A DNA stretch of 64,000 bases from Liolophura sinensis (lineage: Eukaryota > Mollusca > Polyplacophora > Chitonida > Chitonidae), in NCBI RefSeq assembly GCF_032854445.1, contig NC_088300.1, forward strand, positions 34,763,608-34,827,607. Direction: 5' to 3'. Position 1 is the first letter of the stretch; every line of letters begins with the position of its first letter. Shown here piece by piece: positions 37,597-58,800 of the stretch. The notes beneath the pieces are model-generated. The model worked only from the letters and a program-made list of their open reading frames with translations. It searched no databases and had not been told where the DNA came from. The translations under genes and the position numbers were made by a program.

Positions 37597-40500
37597 GATG
37601 TATTTATATCATTTGGTTTTTCCATCTGAGAATGGTTTCACTGTCACATAGACTTCATAACTATAAACAAGATGTCGTTATTTAACAGTAAAAAATATCA
37701 GAATCAGTTGTGGATTTTGAAGATGCATGCAGACAGAATCAAGAAATATAATCCTGTTGCTTATATGGAGTCAAGCTCAGTTCCCTTAAACTTGGACAGG
37801 GTTTTATAGCCATCGGAATTTGGCTGTTTATAAGAATTTATTTTAGTGTTAATATTAAACTCATTATGAAATGAATCCAATTACTTTTCTTCATCTCAGC
37901 AGAAGCATTTGATTCATGGAGTGCACAATAATAATAATACGTTGCTCCAGCCCTTGCTGGATACATGTACATCATGGAATGGGTTCTCCACGAAGACCAT
38001 GGCTCATTGGGTTGTGTGTTCAAATCCAACCTGTGCTGGTTTGTAATGGTGTTACAACACGAGTGTGTTGGTTCTCCTCACGCTTGCATGGTTACCTCCA
38101 CTCAAAAACCAGTCTGCCTGACTCCTAAAATAATCATTCATGTGCATGTACAAAATGTTTCATATAAATTATTTTAGATGGAATATTTTTCTTTCACATT
38201 CATAAAAATACACAAATGATATCTAACTTGTCGTAAATGGTGTCTGGGTTTATAGAGCCAGGTAATGCGATACTATGTGAGAGAAAAATTATGAAAAGTT
38301 GATTTATGAAGTTTAGTGAAAGTGCACAGTACGTCCTTAGGAAAATGACTAAACTGCTTTCATTGTTACAAAATTATCGTGATTATTTTTAAATGAAAGT
38401 CTAGTGATTGGTTGTTTGTTTAATATGTGATTCTCATTACCAATCTGGTTGCTCTCCTGATAGAGACCATAAAGCCCTTTCAGTCATTACACATTCTATG
38501 ATTTGGACATTTGTCAGAGTATATAACTGCCTATGCCCACATGAACTGCTAGATAACATGGGCAAGGCTTGATAGTGACTGAGTACGTGTAACTGTGAGA
38601 CTGTTCTGAATGCAGTATTCCTTATCCTCATTGTTTCGCATTGCCAGGGAAGAGGAGCTGAGATATGTGGAGTTTGTGAGGGCAGTCACTCAGGATGTCT
38701 TAGACAGGGGCATATTTACTAACAGGTTTGTGTACTGTAGAACAGTTACATGTAGTGTCATAAAGTCCATCCCTTGTTGACCAAACATGCAAAGTTGATG
38801 AATACACTGTTCATGGAGGAGACCCATGGCTCTCAACATGCCAGATTATCTAGTATTCATATCTCGGTGTCTTTATACAGTAAATATTAAGTAATATGTT
38901 GTTTTGATAGTTCAGTTTTCTCTTGTCCCATAATATAGCCACGACTACAAATTAAATAGTAAATCTTGAAAACTGAAAACAACCTAAGCTGGGAAGATTT
39001 ACGAATGGTTTTTCCTGTGATGTAGTAAATCAGTCCATTTGGCACTCTAACAAAGATTTGTCTGTGTTTTTGCAGAGTACTTTTGCATGCATTTGAGACT
39101 CACATTGAGAAAAACAAACATCACCTGGATGAGGTAAGTATATACTGGTCACCGCAGTGTCGTGTTTTATCATTATAATAGACTTTTATGCAGTTGCTGT
39201 CTAAGCTAAAATGAAAGCATAGATATACACAATAACAGTTAGCTTTAAGCCTTTTTTGTTTTACTTTTTTAATACTTTTTTTAGGTACTAATGCTGAAAA
39301 ATGGATTAAATTGTCCAGATTCAGATAGCACCTTAAGTCATGAGGTTGTGGCCAGTGGTTCACTCCCAGAACGTTTAATACTCAAAGAATTTTGGACCCA
39401 TAAACCTTACTGATGTGATATGAGTGAAATATTCTTGAGCAGCAATCAGATAAATAATTCAGTAAATACATTAAAGCACCACGGCATAATAACTTCATAC
39501 ATTTTAGCGTAAAATGAGGTCTCTGTTGGCCCAGCTGAGAGAAGATCTGGGGATACCATCCGCTCGTGAGGCTGATATGGATTATGAAAATGTGGGACAC
39601 AGCTCTCGCAGGTCTTCAGGGTATCGCAGAGGAGAATTGAACCATGAGAACACATTAACACCTCAATACAAGCCAAGGGCATACAACTCACTGAGTTTAG
39701 ACAAGACGGGTACTTACAACCCACAGAGTACAGAGATACAAAACTCACTGAGTATGGGCAAGACAGGGGATTACAGCATACATGGTCTAGAGAACACAGG
39801 GATAGGTAACTCACTGAGTATGGACAAAACAGGGGATTACAACAGACACGGCCTAGAGAATACAGGGATGCACAACTCACTGAGTATGGACAAAACAGGG
39901 GATTACAACAGACGCGCCCTAGAGAATACAGGGATGCACAACTCACTGAGTATGGACAAGACAGGGGATTACAACAGACACAGGCTAGAGAACACAGGGA
40001 TGCATAACTCACTGAGTATGGACAAGACTGGGGATTATAACAGAGACGGGCTAGAGAACACAGGGATGCACAACTCACTGAGTATGGACAAGACTGGGGA
40101 TTATAACAGAGACGGGCTAGAGAACACAGGGATGCACAACTCACTGAGTGAAACAGGGGATTACAACCCACAGGGATCAGAGGGAACAGAAATGTACAAC
40201 TCGCTGACTATGCAGAAATCATTGGCATACAATACTAAAGGCTTGGAGAAAACAGGGACAACAACCTGGCTGAGCGAGGATGAGGGAACATTGCGAACTA
40301 CACAGTTAGGGGAGACAACTGAGGACGAGTACTTGATGACACTTACAGGAGGCATGCAGACAAAGGAGCCGTCATATACAGCCACACTGGAGAATGATAG
40401 AGATGAACTGTCGGTCAGCCAGGCCCTGAAGACCTACCAGCTTACCATACAACAGCAAGACTCTCTGGAAAACCCTCTGGCCGGGGACTACACTAACAAC

Positions 40501-41328
40501 TCTGGTCTAAGCCAGGAATCTCAGCTAGACCGGGTGGAGAGCAGAGCTGCCTCGGAGGTGTCTGGGAGGTCAGAGCAAGAAACACCCCGGAGCAAGCGGC
40601 GACAGAAAAGACAACAGTCACAGGTGTCGAATGGCTTCATAGAAAGTGCCTTTCAGTTGGGTGATGATGACAAACAGTCTGTGATGTCCCTGAGCAGAGA
40701 CAATGTCGGAAGCCAAGACAGAGTATCCTCCCCATCTTCACAGATCTCCAGGAACTCCCTGAGAAACACTAGACCCCATCTGAGAGGGGAAGAACAGAAG
40801 ACAGGTGCTTCCAGGTTCATTCATGGATCTGCCGTGGGGAATATGAAATTTAGTAATTCTGTCAGTAATGGCATGGGGAAAGACAATAAATCTGGTGATC
40901 TAGGAGGGTCCAGTCATGGTCATGAAAGCCCTGGTGAAAATGATGATGAATCCAATGTTGATCGATACAAAGACCATGGTTTTCAATCCGCAACTCGCAG
41001 TGATCGTGAATCAGAAGCTGGTGACACCATGAGTCATGAAGGTGAACCCGTTGACAACATTGGTAAAGGATCTTTCGTTTACCACAATGGAACAAGAGAT
41101 GATTCTGACACAGCTGAAAATATTGCACCCTACAGTGCGTCAGCGAAAAGATCATCTAATGCTAGGCAACATCATCGACTCAAGGATAAAGAATCCAATG
41201 CTGAGCCACCTGATGGCGAGGACACCAATGTTGATGACTACGAGGATGACTATGAGGAGGACATGGCTGATGCAGACGATGAGAATGCCACCACCCTGAC
41301 ACACAGGTCATCAGATGATGACTTTTAG
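28941..41328 (+). CDS. SPATA7: SPATA7 orthologue, complete, 9 coding exons
   Basis: The orthologue of spermatogenesis-associated protein 7, a ciliary transition-zone protein; in vertebrates it acts at the photoreceptor connecting cilium with RPGRIP1, and its loss causes retinal dystrophy. Exons are 28,941-28,983, 29,367-29,456, 29,959-30,006, 30,466-30,593, 32,505-33,256, 33,824-33,871, 38,648-38,725, 39,076-39,133 and 39,508-41,328. All are GT-AG and in phase, giving 3,066 nt and 1,021 aa. Family signatures are LTTQYLVLDHMNNHYKK near the N-terminus, FTPRTLK and YKYYTPPKK (residues ~204-228), EEELRYVEFVRAVTQDV, GIFTNRVLL.AFETHIEKNK, and KMRSLLAQLREDLG. Human SPATA7 is 599 aa; the extra length is mainly in the last exon, which has nine tandem copies of a ~22-residue repeat and an acidic tail. 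Confidence 0.94.
29367..29456 (+). CDS. SPATA7: SPATA7 exon 2 (conserved N-terminal motif)
   Basis: Acceptor TTTCTAG leads into PLCPTASKLTTQYLVLDHMN. LTTQYLV..HM..HYKK matches the vertebrate LSTLQLVKNHMAVHYNK region. Donor is GTAAGTATC. Confidence 0.93.
29959..30006 (+). CDS. SPATA7: SPATA7 exon 3
   Basis: A 48-nt exon between TTTTCAG and GTAATTATC encodes PSIDNTPPKSIAKSQK. It is kept because it preserves phase 1 between exons 2 and 4. Confidence 0.8.
30466..30593 (+). CDS. SPATA7: SPATA7 exon 4
   Basis: The exon encodes an Arg/Ser-rich segment (VRDRCQRAQSSRPGSRYSD) ending in YDETYW. The acceptor CTTTAAAG has a weak pyrimidine tract, and the donor is GTAGGG. The fit depends on phase continuity with exons 3 and 5. 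Confidence 0.75.
30705..31335 (+). mobile_element. Composite of family 2 SINEs in SPATA7 intron 4
   Basis: There is a partial body at 30,705-30,805 and then a copy with a tRNA-like head at ~30,822 (GGTGGACTAATGGTTAGAG). Its body carries CAGCACTGAGAGGTT and a tail with GTCATATGAGTAAGAAATTG, TTAAGTACGTTGTTAAACCC. A second tail-like segment lies at 31,230-31,330. The head differs from family 1. The arrangement looks like one insertion next to or into older copies. Confidence 0.75.
31395..31556 (+). mobile_element. Diverged family 1 SINE, head missing
   Basis: The segment contains GATGGTCATGGGTTTCCCCT, GGCCACCGTCGTATAAATGC and CATCAATCAAATAAATGAAT. Many substitutions mark it as an old copy in SPATA7 intron 4. 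Confidence 0.75.
32505..33256 (+). CDS. SPATA7: SPATA7 exon 5 (central conserved region)
   Basis: A 752-nt exon entered at GTTACAG and left at donor GTAGCTGCC after AACAG. It contains the family signature PFTPRTLK followed by EYKYYTPPKK, nearly identical to vertebrate SPATA7. The rest is basic and Ser/Pro-rich and looks disordered. The frame closes a few bases past the donor (after REQNR-type sequence), which confirms that splicing is needed here. Confidence 0.95.
33824..33871 (+). CDS. SPATA7: SPATA7 exon 6
   Basis: A 48-nt exon between TGTTGCAG and GTGAGTAC encodes GFGSGRSWAQERLSS. Phase 2 in and phase 2 out fit exons 5 and 7. Confidence 0.8.
34230..34327 (+). mobile_element. Very diverged family 1 SINE tail
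   Basis: The segment has GTTTCCCTCCACCTATACAT, then GTGAAATGTTATTGTGCACA and AAAATACCAATCAAATAAC. Only the 3' end is recognisable. Confidence 0.5.
35767..35790 (+). repeat. Poly-C tract
   Basis: About 20 C residues broken by one A, next to a family 1 SINE remnant, as in the copy at 532-565. Confidence 0.9.
35815..35912 (+). mobile_element. Family 1 SINE 3' half
   Basis: CAGTTTCCTCCCACAATAAT, TTGGCCGCCGTCTTGTGAGT, GAAATATTCTTGAGTATGGC and AACACCAAGCAAAAAAG are present. Confidence 0.8.
36438..36512 (+). mobile_element. Family 1 SINE 3' fragment
   Basis: TTCTCCCACCATAATGCTGG is followed after a deletion by AGTATTCTCGAGCACGGTGG and CACCAATCAAATAAG. Confidence 0.75.
37551..37593. repeat. (AT)n microsatellite
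   Basis: About 20 uninterrupted AT units in SPATA7 intron 6. Confidence 0.95.
38648..38725 (+). CDS. SPATA7: SPATA7 exon 7 (conserved helical region)
   Basis: Acceptor TTGCCAG leads into EEELRYVEFVRAVTQDVLDR then GIFTN. This parallels vertebrate EEELLYLSFIEDVTDEILKLG..SN. Donor GTTTGTG is weaker than the others in the gene. Confidence 0.94.
39076..39133 (+). CDS. SPATA7: SPATA7 exon 8
   Basis: The 58-nt exon encodes VLLHAFETHIEKNKHHLDE between TTTGCAG and GTAAGTAT. It corresponds to vertebrate FLERLFERHIKQNKHLEEE. Confidence 0.94.
39508..41328 (+). CDS. SPATA7: SPATA7 exon 9 (last; repeat domain and acidic tail)
   Basis: Acceptor CATTTTAG is followed by RKMRSLLAQLREDLGIPS, the conserved end of the helical region, so the vertebrate-like core stops here. 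Then come nine tandem repeats with consensus NSLSMDKTGDYNRHGLENTG. A long polar Ser/Glu/Asp-rich segment follows, and an acidic tail (DDYEDDYEEDMADADDE) ends in DDDF. The stop is TAG at 41,326-41,328. Confidence 0.95.
   Translation, partial: RKMRSLLAQLREDLGIPSAREADMDYENVGHSSRRSSGYRRGELNHENTLTPQYKPRAYNSLSLDKTGTYNPQSTEIQNSLSMGKTGDYSIHGLENTGIGNSLSMDKTGDYNRHGLENTGMHNSLSMDKTGDYNRRALENTGMHNSLSMDKTGDYNRHRLENTGMHNSLSMDKTGDYNRDGLENTGMHNSLSMDKTGDYNRDGLENTGMHNSLSETGDYNPQGSEGTEMYNSLTMQKSLAYNTKGLEKTGTTTWLSEDEGTLRTTQLGETTEDEYLMTLTGGMQTKEPSYTATLENDRDELSVSQALKTYQLTIQQQDSLENPLAGDYTNNSGLSQESQLDRVESRAASEVSGRSEQETPRSKRRQKRQQSQVSNGFIESAFQLGDDDKQSVMSLSRDNVGSQDRVSSPSSQISRNSLRNTRPHLRGEEQKTGASRFIHGSAVGNMKFSNSVSNGMGKDNKSGDLGGSSHGHESPGENDDESNVDRYKDHGFQSATRSDRESEAGDTMSHEGEPVDNIGKGSFVYHNGTRDDSDTAENIAPYSASAKRSSNARQHHRLKDKESNAEPPDGEDTNVDDYEDDYEEDMADADDENATTLTHRSSDDDF
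39685..40260 (+). repeat. SPATA7: In-frame 66-bp coding minisatellite in SPATA7
   Basis: Repeats start at AACTCACTG at 39,685, 39,742, 39,808, 39,874, 39,940, 40,006, 40,072, 40,138 and 40,198. Intervals are 57, six of 66, then 60 bp, all multiples of three. Inner units are nearly identical at DNA level, while the first, eighth and ninth are diverged. This is the pattern of an array growing from the middle. Confidence 0.97.
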
Positions 41329-44294: not shown

Positions 44295-44620
44295 ATTAAT
44301 CTCAGAGCACCTGCCTTGAAATTGGGAGAACAATGATCAAACCCGGGTCAAATCATACCAAAAGACTTAAAAAATGGCACTTTTTGCTTCCTCGCTCTGC
44401 ACTCAATGAGGTTAGAGCAAAGAAAACGGGACTGGTTGGTCAGGCGCAGTATAACGTTACAGACTGGGATGTTATGTCTGGTGTCTTAAGTGTGATACTT
44501 CAGTGAGGGCACTACTTCACCCTGCCACAAGAAGACACAGTATTTACACAAGTACAGAATAAGTCGTCTTTGTCATGACGGAAAAGTTAAGTACAACATA
44601 AAATTTCAAGCATACATACA
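44295..44620 (+). mobile_element. Family 2 SINE, plus orientation, head incomplete
   Basis: AACAATGATCAAACCCGGGT (B-box-like), then TCATACCAAAAGACTTAAAA, GGTTAGAGCAAAG, a body matching 30,960-31,170, and the tail TTAAGTACAACATAAAATTT. It abuts the regular part of the minisatellite. Confidence 0.8.
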
Positions 44621-45957
44621 TACTGATATATAGGACCTGACATACCACCCAGTCATCAAGTACTGACACCAGAAATGACTCCCCACATACTGGCATATAG
44701 GACCTGACATACCACCCAGTCATCAAGTACTGACACCACAAATGACTCCCCACATACTGCTCAGTCATCAAGTACTGACACCAGAAATGACTCCCCACAT
44801 ACTGGCATATAGGACCTGACATACCGCCCAGTGAAGTACTGACACCAGAAATGACTCCCCACATACTGATGTATAGGACCTGACATACCGCTCAGTCAAG
44901 TACTGACACCAGAAATGACTCCCCACATACTGGCATATAGGACCTGACATACTGCTCAGTCATCAAGTACTGACACCAGAAATGACTCCCCACATACTGG
45001 CACATAGGACCTGACATACCGCACACCAGAAATGACTCCCCACATACTGGCATATAGGACCTGACATATCGCCCAGTCATTAAGTACTGACACCAGAAAT
45101 GACATCCCTCATACTGACACAGTATACTGACACCAGAAATGACTCCCCACATACTGGCATATAGGACCTGACATACCGCCCAGTCATTAAGTACTGACAC
45201 CAGAAATGACATCCCTCATACTGACACAGTATACTGACACCAGAAATGACTCCCCACATACTGATATATAGGACCTGACATATCGCCCAGTCATTAAGTA
45301 CTGACATCAGAAATGACTTCCCTCATACTGACACAGTATACTGACACCAGAAATGACTCCCCACATACTGGCATATAGGACCTGACATACCGCCCAGTCA
45401 AGTACTGACACCAGAAATGACTCCCCACATACTGATATATAGGACCTGACATACCGCTCAGTCAAGTACTGACACCAGAAATGACTCCTCACATACTGGC
45501 ATATAGGACCTGACATACTGCTCAGTCATTAAGTACTGATACCAGAAATGACTTCCCTCATACTGACACAGTATACACATGTTAACACCAGACATGACAC
45601 CCCATCCAGTCACAGTGTAGGCCTATACTGACACCAGAAATGACACCCATTCAATCACAATGTGGTGACACCAGAAATGAAACCCCACCCAGTCACAATG
45701 TACTGACACTAGAAATGGCATGCCATCCTCTACTGACTCTGAACTCATTAAGGTGCACTATTAGCTTTTTCAGCCAGACAGACCATGTGACTCCCATTTA
45801 CAGCAATGCTCCAATATTACAAATCTCCCATGATAATGCATGGAAAGCAGATAGTGCACCTAGCTCTCTGAACTGACCAAGTAAACATAGCCTGTTCACT
45901 TACCTGTATAGTACCTATCATTCATGGAGGTGGAAAACAGACTGATATTTATTTATT

Positions 45958-52848: not shown

Positions 52849-55800
52849 CTAAAATAATTGGAAAAATTTCATTTACTCAAATGTAAATAAAGATTAAAGA
52901 AATCTTAAAGAAAAAATATTCATCAAATCAATCAATCTATTATCACAAAATTGATATACTGAATAAATCTGCCTTAATTGGCTCATCCACTGGCGGAATT
53001 GAAAATCTGTAGCATCACGTCCCTTGATCTGCTCACCGTTTTTATTCCATTACTGAAAAGAGTGCCAGGTTTATTGGGGAGACAGTTCTCAAGCGTGAAA
53101 CTTTACCGAATACAGTTCAAATATGTAATCAATGAAACATCAACTCTTCCTGAGATTTAACCAACAAAGTATCCTAAATAATGCTTTTGTTAAATGTTAC
53201 TCATGATATACATGTACACACTTTTGACAAACATATTTAAACCTTTTGTTTAAATATTCACAAAAATTACAGTACAGCCCAATCCTAACCATCAATCCTG
53301 CGCCCACTGTGGTCGGATGGTCCGTATATCATACGCCAACTATTTGCTGACCCTGGTCAAACATGCGGTCATACTCCACCTACAATTGGTGTAGGGTCGG
53401 CTCATGGTCCACCGACAGTCCATCCATGGTGGTGCCATGGTCAGAGTATCGTTTTACAACATTCATTCGCTTCCTGCAGTTTGATGTAACGACACCAGAG
53501 TTACACTGCAGGCCTTGTATTATTTATGTGACTTTCGCTATAAATTTTTATAGCTTTATTACTGATTTTGGACATAACACATGCGCAGACGAGACTGATA
53601 TTTCGCGAAAGGTAATTATTGAGGTATTCTAAAGTAACAGCTAAAGTTGGATTGGAATCGCACTAATAGATTTCTGTTTACCGGCACCAAAAAGCTGGGT
53701 GGCAGACCAAAACAATAGGGGTCCCAAAAAGTAAGCTATTGAAACTCGAATTTTGTGCGAAATTCAGGTGCAAGTAAACATGCTGTGAGCCATCACAGTG
53801 TTCCCAAGAGGCATGACAGTCGGCATATCGTACACTGACCACGGGCCAATCATCAGCATGTCCTCCAGACACCATGGCCATGGGACTGATGGTTAGGATC
53901 CAGGTGTACTGTACCTACCTTGGTCTGAGCCTGTGTCACTGTGATCTGAGTGGTCAGTTTCTTGATTTGGCATTGACTTTAACTGACCACTGTCCATCAC
54001 ACAGCCCTGGAATTCTACCCCACTACAACAACAAAATGATTGAAATCAACAAAAAGGCTAGACAGTACCACAGTTTGACCAAAAGAAACATTTGTGTAAA
54101 ATACAGGTTTATTAACTTGAATGGTGTTTTTCACAATGCTCTAAAATTTTTGTCACTTCTATGATGCTGGTCAAGTTTAGCGGTGGAGGAAATCAGAGTT
54201 CCCCGAGTAAACCTTTCCTGGAAGTCTGCATGTTACACCTAGAAAAGATGGCTTACCACATCCATTCCAGTAATGACCAGTCATATAAATGGCTGCCATC
54301 ACATGAGTGAAAAATATTCTGATATGGCATTAAAGTAAAACAACAATCAAATAAACCATTAAAAAAAATGACTTTTAACCAGCGTGAACTTTAGCCTTTA
54401 GAGCCAGAAGATTTGTCTCCAGCAAAGAGACTTACCTCAGTACATAGTTTAAAGCAACAACATTTTGCTCCTCCAAGTTTTTGGCCGTGCAAATGGTGGT
54501 GGCACACGTTTGTATCCACACATAGCCACCATGTTTGTTCATCAGTCGGTAATACTCCGTCATTACCTGTCCTTTTTGTAACACTGACGAACACACAAAG
54601 TCAAAAAATGGTAAGGTGAAGAAACAAACATAGAATGAATGATTATGGTTTAACGCCACATATTTCAGCCATATCGTAGCAAAACAAACATAGAGCAAAC
54701 ACACTAGCCAATGATTCATGGTTCCACTCAGAAATAAAAAATTTTTTCGAGGACTTACAGGAAACATATCCCACGTTTTTCAGTACTGTCAACAACTATT
54801 CAGCCACATTTCTCCCATTCTGAACATAACGTAATATGATATTTAACACTGAAAGATCAAGTACTGTTACTTTCAAATAAACTCATTTTCAAGAACTTCC
54901 ATCCAAGCTTTTAAGTACTTTTAAGGGTGTTTTTTAAGGGAGTAGTAGGAACCCTGCCAAATGGGTACGTACTCAAATCTACAAAAATATGAGTTATCCC
55001 CCCTTATTTCATAGACGCACTTGTATAGAAATGACCACAATGACAGAGAGCAGGCTTACAATCGACATGGGACTTCCGTAACTTCTGTAGGTCAGCAGCA
55101 TGACAGTGGTCATATAAAATATTATTAGTGATATCGTCTGCTGAAAGATCCATTAACTCTGCAATTCTGCAAGAAACGAAAAAAAAGGGGTGTTAGCTAT
55201 AGTTAAAACCAACTTCACTTTTAGCTTCACACCACTGAAGCCTGGTTTTTTTCTTTTGGCTCCCCCTGGTCTCTTCCACATATCAACATGGTCATCATTG
55301 AATTTGTGAAACTCCTGAGAATGACAAACTCCGGTTGAATAAATATTCTGTTATTTTTCAACTTCAAGAGAATCTTCTCTAATTTAACCAACAACCTTAT
55401 GTTGAATTAAGAAACTACATGTACTTCCAGGCACCATGTCAACAAAGGTAGAGACATGACAAAATAAATTTAAATATGACTACAAGAGCTTGGTCAGGCA
55501 ATTTGTGCATCATATCTTTCGTATTTTTCTCGCAAAAAAAAAAAAAACAAACAAAAAAAAACAGCAACAACATGTTTTGTACGAAGCATATGGTACAGAT
55601 GACAACAATTAATTAACACCCATTATTAAAGTAAATAAACCATGAAAAATAGAATTGCTATCATCTAGTTTTCCAGCTTTGAAAAGGCTTGTTTTAAGAC
55701 CAGATTCTGCAAAGACTTATCCCCATTACTTACTTGGGCTCACAATATAGCACCTTGAACTCTGGGCTGAGTCTCGTCACAAAGGTATCATTTTCCATGC

Positions 55801-58800
55801 GAAGCTCAGTGATGGTGGGAGGCGGAAGGGCGATAGCTAGTGCCACTAGCCCTAGCAATGGAGGGGACTGTTTGCGATTTAATGAAAATGAAAACTGGGG
55901 TCGATGGTGAGCTATTATATGAACTACCTGCAAACACAAAGAAAATGGTGTTGCATTTAATTAGAGTAGATAAGAGTAATACAGTACAATTCATAAACAA
56001 TGTAATACATTCTACACTGGCTTTAACTCTGGCACCCAAAACACAATCACAAGCAGCTAAACTGCAGCACACATATTAAAGACAATCACAGTGGTTAACC
56101 TTTCCACATTAAATGTGGATTAAATGTAAATGTTCCATTTTTGAGACTAGCTGTGCCACAAACAAAACATCCGCTTGTACACCTTGACTGGTTAAGGTGG
56201 ACTTACTCTATAACCTGAGGTTTTCACATATGCCCCTTGTATGGTTAAGGTGGACTTACTCTATAACCTGAGGTTTTCACATATGCCCCTGGTTTGGTTA
56301 AGAGTAGACTTACTCTATATCCTGAGATTTTCACATATGCCCCTGGTTTGGTTAAGCGTGGACTTACTCTATAACCTGAGGTTTTCACATATGCCCCTTG
56401 TATGGTTAAGGGGGGACATACTCTATATCCTGAGGCTTTCACATGTGCCCCTGGTTTGGTTAAGGGGGGCCTTACTCTATAACCTGAGGCTTTCACATGT
56501 GCCCATTGTGTAGTTAAGGAGGCCTTACCCTACACATATATCCTGAGGTTTTCACATGTGCCCCTGGTTTGGTTACGTAGGACTTACTCTATATCCTGAG
56601 GTTTTCACATGTGCCCCTAGTTTGGTTCAAGCTGGACTTACTCTATATCCTGATGTATTCACATGTGCCCCTGGTTTGGTTACATAGGACTTACTCTATA
56701 TCCTGAGGTTTTCACATGTGCCCCAGGTTTGGTTATGTAGGACTTGCTCTATATCCTGAGGTTTTCACGTGTGCCCCTTGTTTGGTTATGTAGGACTTAC
56801 TCTACATCCTGATGTATTCACATGTGCCCCTGGTTTGGTTACATAGGACTTACTCAATATCCTGAGGTTTTCACATGTGCCCCTGGTTTGGTTATGTAGG
56901 ACTTGCTCTATATCCTGAGGTTTTCACGCGTGCCCCTTGTTTGGTTACGTAGGACTTACTCTATATCCTGAGGTTTTCACATGTGCCCCTAGTCTGGTTC
57001 AAGCTGGACTTACTCTATATCCTGATGTATTCACATGTGCCCCTGGTTTGGTTACATAGGACTTACTCTATATCCTGAGGTTTTCACATGTGCCCCAGGT
57101 TTGGTTATGTAGGACTTGCTCTATATCCTAAGGTTTTCATGCGTGCCCCTTGTTTGGTTACGTAGGACTTACTCTATATCCTGAGGTTTTCACATGTACC
57201 CCTCGTTTCGTTAAGGTGGACTTCATCCGAATACAAAATGAGCGATCACTACCTTTGTCAGGGTTCAGAGTCATTACACATGCTGAAAAAAAAAAACAAA
57301 AAAAAACAACAATGTGAGAATAGGAGCATAAAGTCTGGCATAGCTTAAATCTTCAGTTTGTTCCCAGAGGCAGAATTAAGCTTATGTTAGTGACACTTAG
57401 TAAATGGTTAATACATGCTGAGCTTGGTTGATTACGCTTTGAAATAGCTGAACCAAAATTCCACCACATTAAGCTTTCACATGGCATTGTAGAGGCAAAA
57501 TTCAAATGGAAAGTTAAAAATCAGATTCAAACCTCACTTGCATCTGTCCAATGTCAGGCTTCATTATTACCATCATTTAATCCATAACATTTTTTTTTTA
57601 TAATCCATTGAGAGTCAGAAAGCATGTGTGAATTCTTTTATGGTGAAACCTTCACTAATGTGTTAGCAATAGGAAATCTTAATATGTCACCGTATTGGTA
57701 ATCTGTCTGCGGAATGGTGTCTACATGTACCTCAAGAGAGGCTGCACAGTACATGTATGAAATATGAAAAAAAAAAGTACTTTTTGCTAAGGTGGTAAAA
57801 ATTCTGAGAACTGAAAAAAACTAGAATGATATTAACAGTTTGAATTACACGGAAAATACCTTTATCTGGGAGAGAAGGACTGATAGACCTGGGGGTACCA
57901 GCATCACTGTCAGACAAAGAGCCTGGGGAGGGAACTCCGCCTGAAACACATTATTCCAACATCATTCTCTCAAATATGTAATTTTATTACATGCTTCTAA
58001 TATTTGATGATATTTACCCTCTTTTCTTTGTGACACACTAGTATAAAAATTCCTGAGAAATTCAATTTTGGGAATCATTAACACACCACAATCATGAACA
58101 AAAATAAAAATTTATGACTGCTTTTATGAAAAAATTTGAAAAATTACCAGTATATTGATAGTCTATTTCTATACACTTTATATGTAAAAAAGAAAGTGTG
58201 TCAATAACTTATCAAATTGAAATATTTCTTCCCTCAGTTTATTCATACCTTGTGGAATTGCTAATCCTAAATGATCAGCCAACTCTGGATGATCTTTGAC
58301 GTGTACATAGTCAAACACACTGCTGCCTGTCATCTCTACCTGCGAACCGCAACATATCAAATAGGGTCAAATACAAATCGTAAATACATTTACAAATAAC
58401 TGTGTTAATGTAATGCTGCATCTCCTGTGCATGTTACATTACTACTGAAGGGACGAGATAGGTTATGGGGAGCTGAACTAGACACCTCTGGTTTTGGAGG
58501 TGCCGCTTGACAACATGTATCAGTATGGCGGAGACAAAATGTTAGAATTCCATTACTGAACTGATGACGGTAACACATAAAAGACCTCTAGAGTTGTGAA
58601 GATTTAAATATACATAAGTATTTCTCTTTAGAGATAAGATTACTTCATAATTAAATAAAATATAAACACACAAAGCCATTGATTTAATTCAGTACAGTCT
58701 GAGATGTAACTACTTGCACTTGTGTTTCCAAACTCCCACGAAATCAAACTCTATCAGTTCATTATCTTGTTTTTAAAGATGTTGCTAATTAATGTCAGTA

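Follow-up and report, generated by a model that had tools for sequence, protein, structure and literature searches.

The intron that follows a conserved PAS-domain exon in the chiton Liolophura sinensis holds a tandem array built from the end of that exon together with its 5' splice site (donor), and this array is probably a neutral, exon-seeded minisatellite that leaves with the intron when splicing starts from its first donor. It lies at 56,189-57,223 of the window, i.e., the 64,000-nucleotide stretch of DNA that was analysed, and the gene is read from the minus strand.

The array-bearing exon (57,173-57,282, minus strand) is 110 nt long and, according to the match to the protein chain 5sy7_B and the splice phases, is a coding exon of an NPAS3/NPAS1-like PAS gene, entered in phase 1, with its first residue split with the preceding exon, and left in phase 0. 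Its acceptor comes after a T-rich tract ending in CAG, while at 57,173 the exon ends with GGATATAGA, followed by GTAAGTCC (minus strand). The preceding exon (57,860-57,940, minus strand) has the donor AAG/GTATTT, and the next one (55,734-55,927, minus strand), coding for VVHIIAHH...CEPK, has its acceptor after TTTGCAG and the donor CAA/GTAAGT. The splice phases agree from the preceding exons onwards, across 57,282-57,173 and into 55,927-55,734, and the intron with the array is 1,245 bp in length. When the joined exons were compared with solved bHLH-PAS structures, 5sy7_B (NPAS3) came first and 5sy5_B (NPAS1) second; E for 5sy7_B was 3.4e-57 with the array exon through PAS-B as query and 8.7e-58 with PAS-A to the start of PAS-B. 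Pfam recognises a PAS domain both upstream of the array exon (PF00989, E 9.6e-08) and downstream of it (PF08447, E 9.7e-16), while a search of NCBIfam with the joined PAS exons returned no family. Judged by the likeness of its PAS-A and PAS-B, the host is a gene of the NPAS3/NPAS1 type, in agreement with the initial annotation, which had placed the exon in a PAS gene. The 17-residue peptide encoded by the copied segment has a near-identical counterpart in the NPAS3 chain 5sy7_B; the segment thus belongs to an old coding exon, and the array arose from that exon, as had been proposed from its end and donor.

TRF reports the array with a period of 53, 19.3 copies and a score of 1379, which is far beyond chance, and finds a second, longer period of 372 over almost the same interval. 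Unit boundaries were set by cutting after each donor GT on the minus strand. Cut in this way, the founder unit u1 (57,171-57,223) consists of the last 51 exon bases and the donor GT, and it is followed by 18 complete intronic copies, u2-u19 (56,205-57,170; delimited by TRF and unit cutting), each ending in a donor or near-donor and measuring 53 bp in 11 cases, 54 bp in six and 59 bp in u13. The last unit, u20 (56,172-56,204), placed by alignment, is partial and decayed; it keeps the exon-like GTAC and matches the exon unit in 26 of its first 33 bases, the likeness fading beyond. An exon end with its 5' splice site amplified into about 19 units, as first described, is therefore what the stretch contains. 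The proximal block, u2-u12 (56,586-57,170, minus strand), shows the unit order A B C D, A B C, A B C D. Next comes u13 (56,527-56,585, minus strand), an A-like unit with a 6-bp insertion just before its donor AGG/GTAAGG, its last exon-like base being 56,529, and then the distal block u14-u19 (56,205-56,526, minus strand), in which four of the six units are 54 bp long and one frame is open over 94 codons. The near units had been said to share CCTACGTAACC and the far ones to keep CCACCTTAACC, which holds only in part: CCTACGTAACC is exact in three of the 18 units (u2, u6, u13), the remaining near units carrying CCTACATAACC, CCTATGTAACC or CCAGCTTGAACC, and the exon-like CCACCTTAACC is exact only in u19 and u20.

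Other repeats were met elsewhere in the window. TRF arrays with periods including 64, 67, 107, and 214 bp span about 1.1 kb at 44,618-45,717, and a minisatellite with a 66-bp unit in 6.4 copies (39,730-40,149) lies inside a 606-codon open frame (39,508-41,328, plus strand), where it encodes 22-residue repeats such as GDYNRHGLENTGMHNSLSMDKT; no Pfam family passed its cut-off there.

As regards the founding event, a tandem duplication most likely took in 53 bp at the 3' end of the conserved PAS-gene exon, from the Lys codon AAG up to and including the donor GT, and unequal exchange or replication slippage would then have given the 18 complete extra copies and the partial one. The initial annotation took the occurrence of AAGTCC in the exon and again in the donor region, one unit apart, as a visible trace of slippage. 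This argument was rejected as largely circular, because in every tandem array whatever opens the unit is met again after one period, and the recurrence is thus no independent evidence. It is nevertheless plausible that AAGT of the consensus donor GTAAGT was a pre-existing four-base microhomology with the codons AAG TCC. The distal end of the array is the decayed partial unit, with no clean native intron junction. Whatever the founding step, the arrangement illustrates that tandem copying of an exon can turn codons for Lys and Ser (AAG TCC) into positions +3 to +8 of the intron at a donor.

The units differ in type along the array: A (u2, u6, u9), B (u3, u7, u10), C (u4, u8, u11), and D (u5, u12), then the A-like u13 and the distal set u14-u19. 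Within the proximal part, sequence recurs at distances of 213 and 372 bp, the latter with an exact run of 135 bp, and u3 is identical to u10 and u4 to u11. Proximal copies of the same type differ from one another by 0-4 positions, and the distal units among themselves by 2-11. In a tree, in which several inner supports are weak, types A, B, and C group together with u13, while the exon joins D, close to the distal set. Distances to the exon are less telling. In an anchored alignment, the mean number of differences from the exon is 7.3 for u14-u19 versus 8.2 for u2-u12, and u12, u15, and u19 come closest to it, each with 6 differences. The view that the far units are more exon-like thus survives weakly, with u19 among the closest but the means hardly apart, and its stronger form, with the distal units clearly the most exon-like, was dropped. 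An older age of the distal part is suggested by the divergence among its units, their distance from the exon being hardly smaller. All 18 copies differ from the exon at three positions of the unit, two of these differences replacing an Arg and a Val that are kept in NPAS3 (u20 has the exon-like base at the Val site), which means that the exon represents the ancestral state and has not been homogenised with the array. The pattern is consistent with an array that was seeded from the exon and has lately grown by blocks on its exon side, its distal part having been undisturbed for a long time. On this reading, the exon-proximal half would have been amplified recently in blocks of 4 and 7 units, with the distal copies unrenewed for longer, and the exon copy would have been held fixed by selection on the protein as the intronic copies drifted.

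Each downstream unit brings a potential donor. The authentic one, AGA/GTAAGT (57,167-57,175, minus strand), scores 7.06 with the donor matrix on which all the scores here rest; with this matrix, four other donors of the host gene score 6.41-9.6. A GT is present in 15 of the 18 downstream donors and a GC in the other three. The authentic nine letters recur in 11 of the 18. AGA/GCAAGT, with a score of 0.44, is found in u2, u6, and u9, and the copy nearest to the exon is thus a GC donor; TGA/GTAAGT in u7 scores 5.6, AGA/GTAAGG in u14 5.83, and AGA/GTATGT in u15 4.41. AGG/GTAAGG in u13 reaches 9.0, above the authentic donor and every other GT donor of the intron. The "about 18 look-alike donors" of the initial annotation are therefore there as 18 sites, of which just 11 repeat the authentic nonamer and three are GC; the scoring of each donor, proposed at the same time, shows the 11 equal to the authentic one and u13 higher, but six lower. 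The predicted probability of being unpaired is 0.006 at the authentic donor and 0.000-0.252 at the 18 others. The ideas that the authentic donor would be chosen for its strength or be the more accessible one were rejected, since it equals 11 copies and is below u13, and since the predicted local pairing leaves little unpaired throughout and gives it no advantage. Both facts count against removal of the array from its first donor.

The consequence of using any of the later donors is uniform. By translation, splicing from each of the 18 would add VSPT and then a TAA stop (57,158-57,160, minus strand), upstream of PAS-B, and the full-length frame is reached from the first donor only; here the initial annotation was right on both points. 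Messages with such a premature stop are expected to decay. The first donor belongs to a 110-nt exon whose upstream acceptor is pyrimidine-rich, and splicing most likely starts from it nearly every time, as is reported for the repeats in intron 7 of human F7; the rest of the array would leave with the intron, and a leak to a later donor would lead to the same premature stop and probably to decay of the message.

The main competing explanation is that the 18 later donors compete by copy number, so that array length sets the ratio of full-length factor to VSPT-stop message. The equality of 11 of these donors with the authentic one and the higher score of u13 would favour such competition, as would the shared stop and the recent block duplications, which suggest that the length is still changing. 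However, selection on the donor copies, looked for over nonamer windows that covered the alignable right-hand part of the unit and the six bases after it, was not seen in the 18 copies and was rejected. The donor nonamer is intact in 11 of the 18, and conservation at least as good is seen in 22 of the 30 nonamer windows, a count that includes the donor itself; per column, the minority count averages 0.89 in the donor versus 0.93 elsewhere in the compared part. Donor copies kept no better than the neighbouring sequence speak against the dosage control offered in the initial annotation. Counted as changes on one tree, a 16-column stretch early in the unit has 27 and the other 38 columns 20 (permutation p 0.00075), the stretch having been picked after viewing the data, with 2 of 54 circular blocks of equal length, itself included, reaching its value; a plain count of variable versus constant columns gives no significant difference (Fisher p 0.38). 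This suggests that the rest of the unit, with the exon tail and the donor but not specifically the donor, changes more slowly, a point against the neutral reading. Competition by copy number is further disfavoured by the three GC donors, with the nearest copy among them, by the same layout in human F7, where, in the text available of PMC6627357, only the first site is normally used, and by the statement in the accessible part of PMC5389562 that occupancy of multiple sites by U1 spares splicing efficiency unless the sites are very close, though it affects site selection. Taken together, competition among the donors is unlikely. It is quite unlikely, too, that array length quantitatively sets the output of the developmental bHLH-PAS factor against a truncated form devoid of PAS-B or a decayed message, and so provides a heritable, rapidly mutating variation in dosage.

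A role of the units at the DNA level or as an RNA scaffold, acting through E-boxes or through repeated donors that hold U1 against early polyadenylation, is very unlikely. It could draw on a raw count of 27 CANNTG motifs in 1,021 bp, on the presence of at least one E-box-like CANNTG in 16 of the 18 intronic units, often within the palindrome CACATGTG, and on the mention in PMC5389562, as far as its available text goes, of a block to polyadenylation by U1 that reaches up to 1 kb away from the sites it occupies. But the E-boxes arrived with the copied coding sequence, the exon unit already having one, the window CACATGTGA is kept in 11 of the 18 copies like many others, and the intron measures just 1,245 bp. 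Still less credible is an in-frame cassette by which the distal units would add 18-residue copies of the PAS-gene peptide, even though 56,529-56,245 is open for 94 codons, with repeated VxPxLTKPGAxVKxSGYR-like peptides and phase-0 donors. This candidate was rejected, since just two of 26 AG dinucleotides join in phase, both at the u13 insertion and neither with a pyrimidine tract; moreover, one frame on the opposite strand is open for longer (99 codons), and openness therefore means little in a repeat. Finally, the intron might have captured a dispersed satellite or mobile repeat, the likeness to the exon being secondary. The genome does hold many minisatellites, but the exon segment is a conserved protein motif in NPAS3 and hence older than the array, and no copies turned up elsewhere with any of three queries. 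The whole region gave one match in the 609-Mb genome; a 34-base pattern spanning the end of the unit and the donor gave 17 hits when up to 3 mismatches were allowed, all inside the array and one of them the exon unit, its reversed control giving none in the genome; and a query of three distal units gave eight matches, again all inside the array. The same array at unrelated loci, which the initial annotation had named as the finding that would overturn its reading, was thus absent from these searches, which skip very common words and to which masked stretches are invisible. Within those limits, the array is at a single location, and a captured satellite, rejected on this ground, is highly improbable.

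Minisatellites abound in this genome. In 12 stretches of 10 kb sampled elsewhere, arrays with a period of 20-120 and at least 3 copies numbered 22 and covered 11,194 of 120,000 bases (about 9%), unevenly, with none in three of the stretches and 4,004 bases (40%) in one; the window, the present array included, has 4.6% in such arrays. At this density, arrays should now and then overlap the edge of an exon, unless selection removes them.

Further features of the assembly were recorded in passing. Seven COX1 matches spaced about 15.5 kb apart lie in one 109-kb contig (C99) and one more in another (C632); the frame contains TGA and gives 512 residues with the invertebrate code. C99 is probably the mitochondrial genome assembled as a concatemer. 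Among the 138 kinase-domain matches listed, close-spaced ones occur on C8 (30,110,489-30,136,174) and C5 (13,465,676-13,476,590), with four open frames of 396 codons and five of 757-1026 codons in the two runs, which look like tandem gene clusters, judged by spacing and frames.

The locus offers a natural test of 5' splice site choice, as 12 donors, the real one and 11 copies, are identical in nine letters and have similar surroundings, and the same intron also has one higher-scoring site further down, in u13. If the first donor is always taken, position and not strength decides, and the report on F7 extends to another animal gene; if it is not, the dosage of a conserved transcription factor could be tuned by the length of the array.

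A literature search for NPAS3 with minisatellites found nothing related, judged by title, and the available portions of PMC3045353 and PMC12783039 do not state an origin from an exon and its donor for the intron repeats they deal with. The array resembles intron gain by tandem duplication in that a duplication across an exon-intron boundary duplicates splice signals, but no new intron is indicated here and the duplicated donors lie inside one existing intron. Comparable, too, are the internal tandem repeats at exon-intron boundaries described, in the accessible text of PMC2812944, for human genes in segmental duplications, which share with it the expansion of a minisatellite at such a boundary, able to create alternative splicing patterns. 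Those cases concern recently arisen paralogs backed by transcripts, in which a unit of about 30 bp occurs about 4 times on average, whereas the chiton locus is single in the searches and is described from genome sequence.

The closest parallel is intron 7 of F7, the human gene for coagulation factor VII. According to the available part of PMC6627357, it contains 37-bp repeats, the first of which holds the authentic 5' splice site and is followed by highly homologous ones; the number of repeats is variable, only the first donor is normally used, and transcripts from the downstream intronic sites encode no functional protein. Variable repeat number and first-donor use are thus reported there, while the chiton array is represented by one assembly and its sequence only. 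The two also differ in unit length (37 bp versus 53/54 bp), in the 18 complete extra copies present here, and in the gene and animal concerned. The chiton array nevertheless shares the layout of F7 as reported: its unit u1 (57,223-57,171, with the exon end at 57,173) carries the authentic donor at the exon-intron boundary, and the later units carry donors of their own (15 GT and three GC of 18), all 18 of which lead by translation to VSPT and a stop. Compared with F7 as described in that source, the present array is not a new kind of structure, the same arrangement being already on record in human F7 intron 7.
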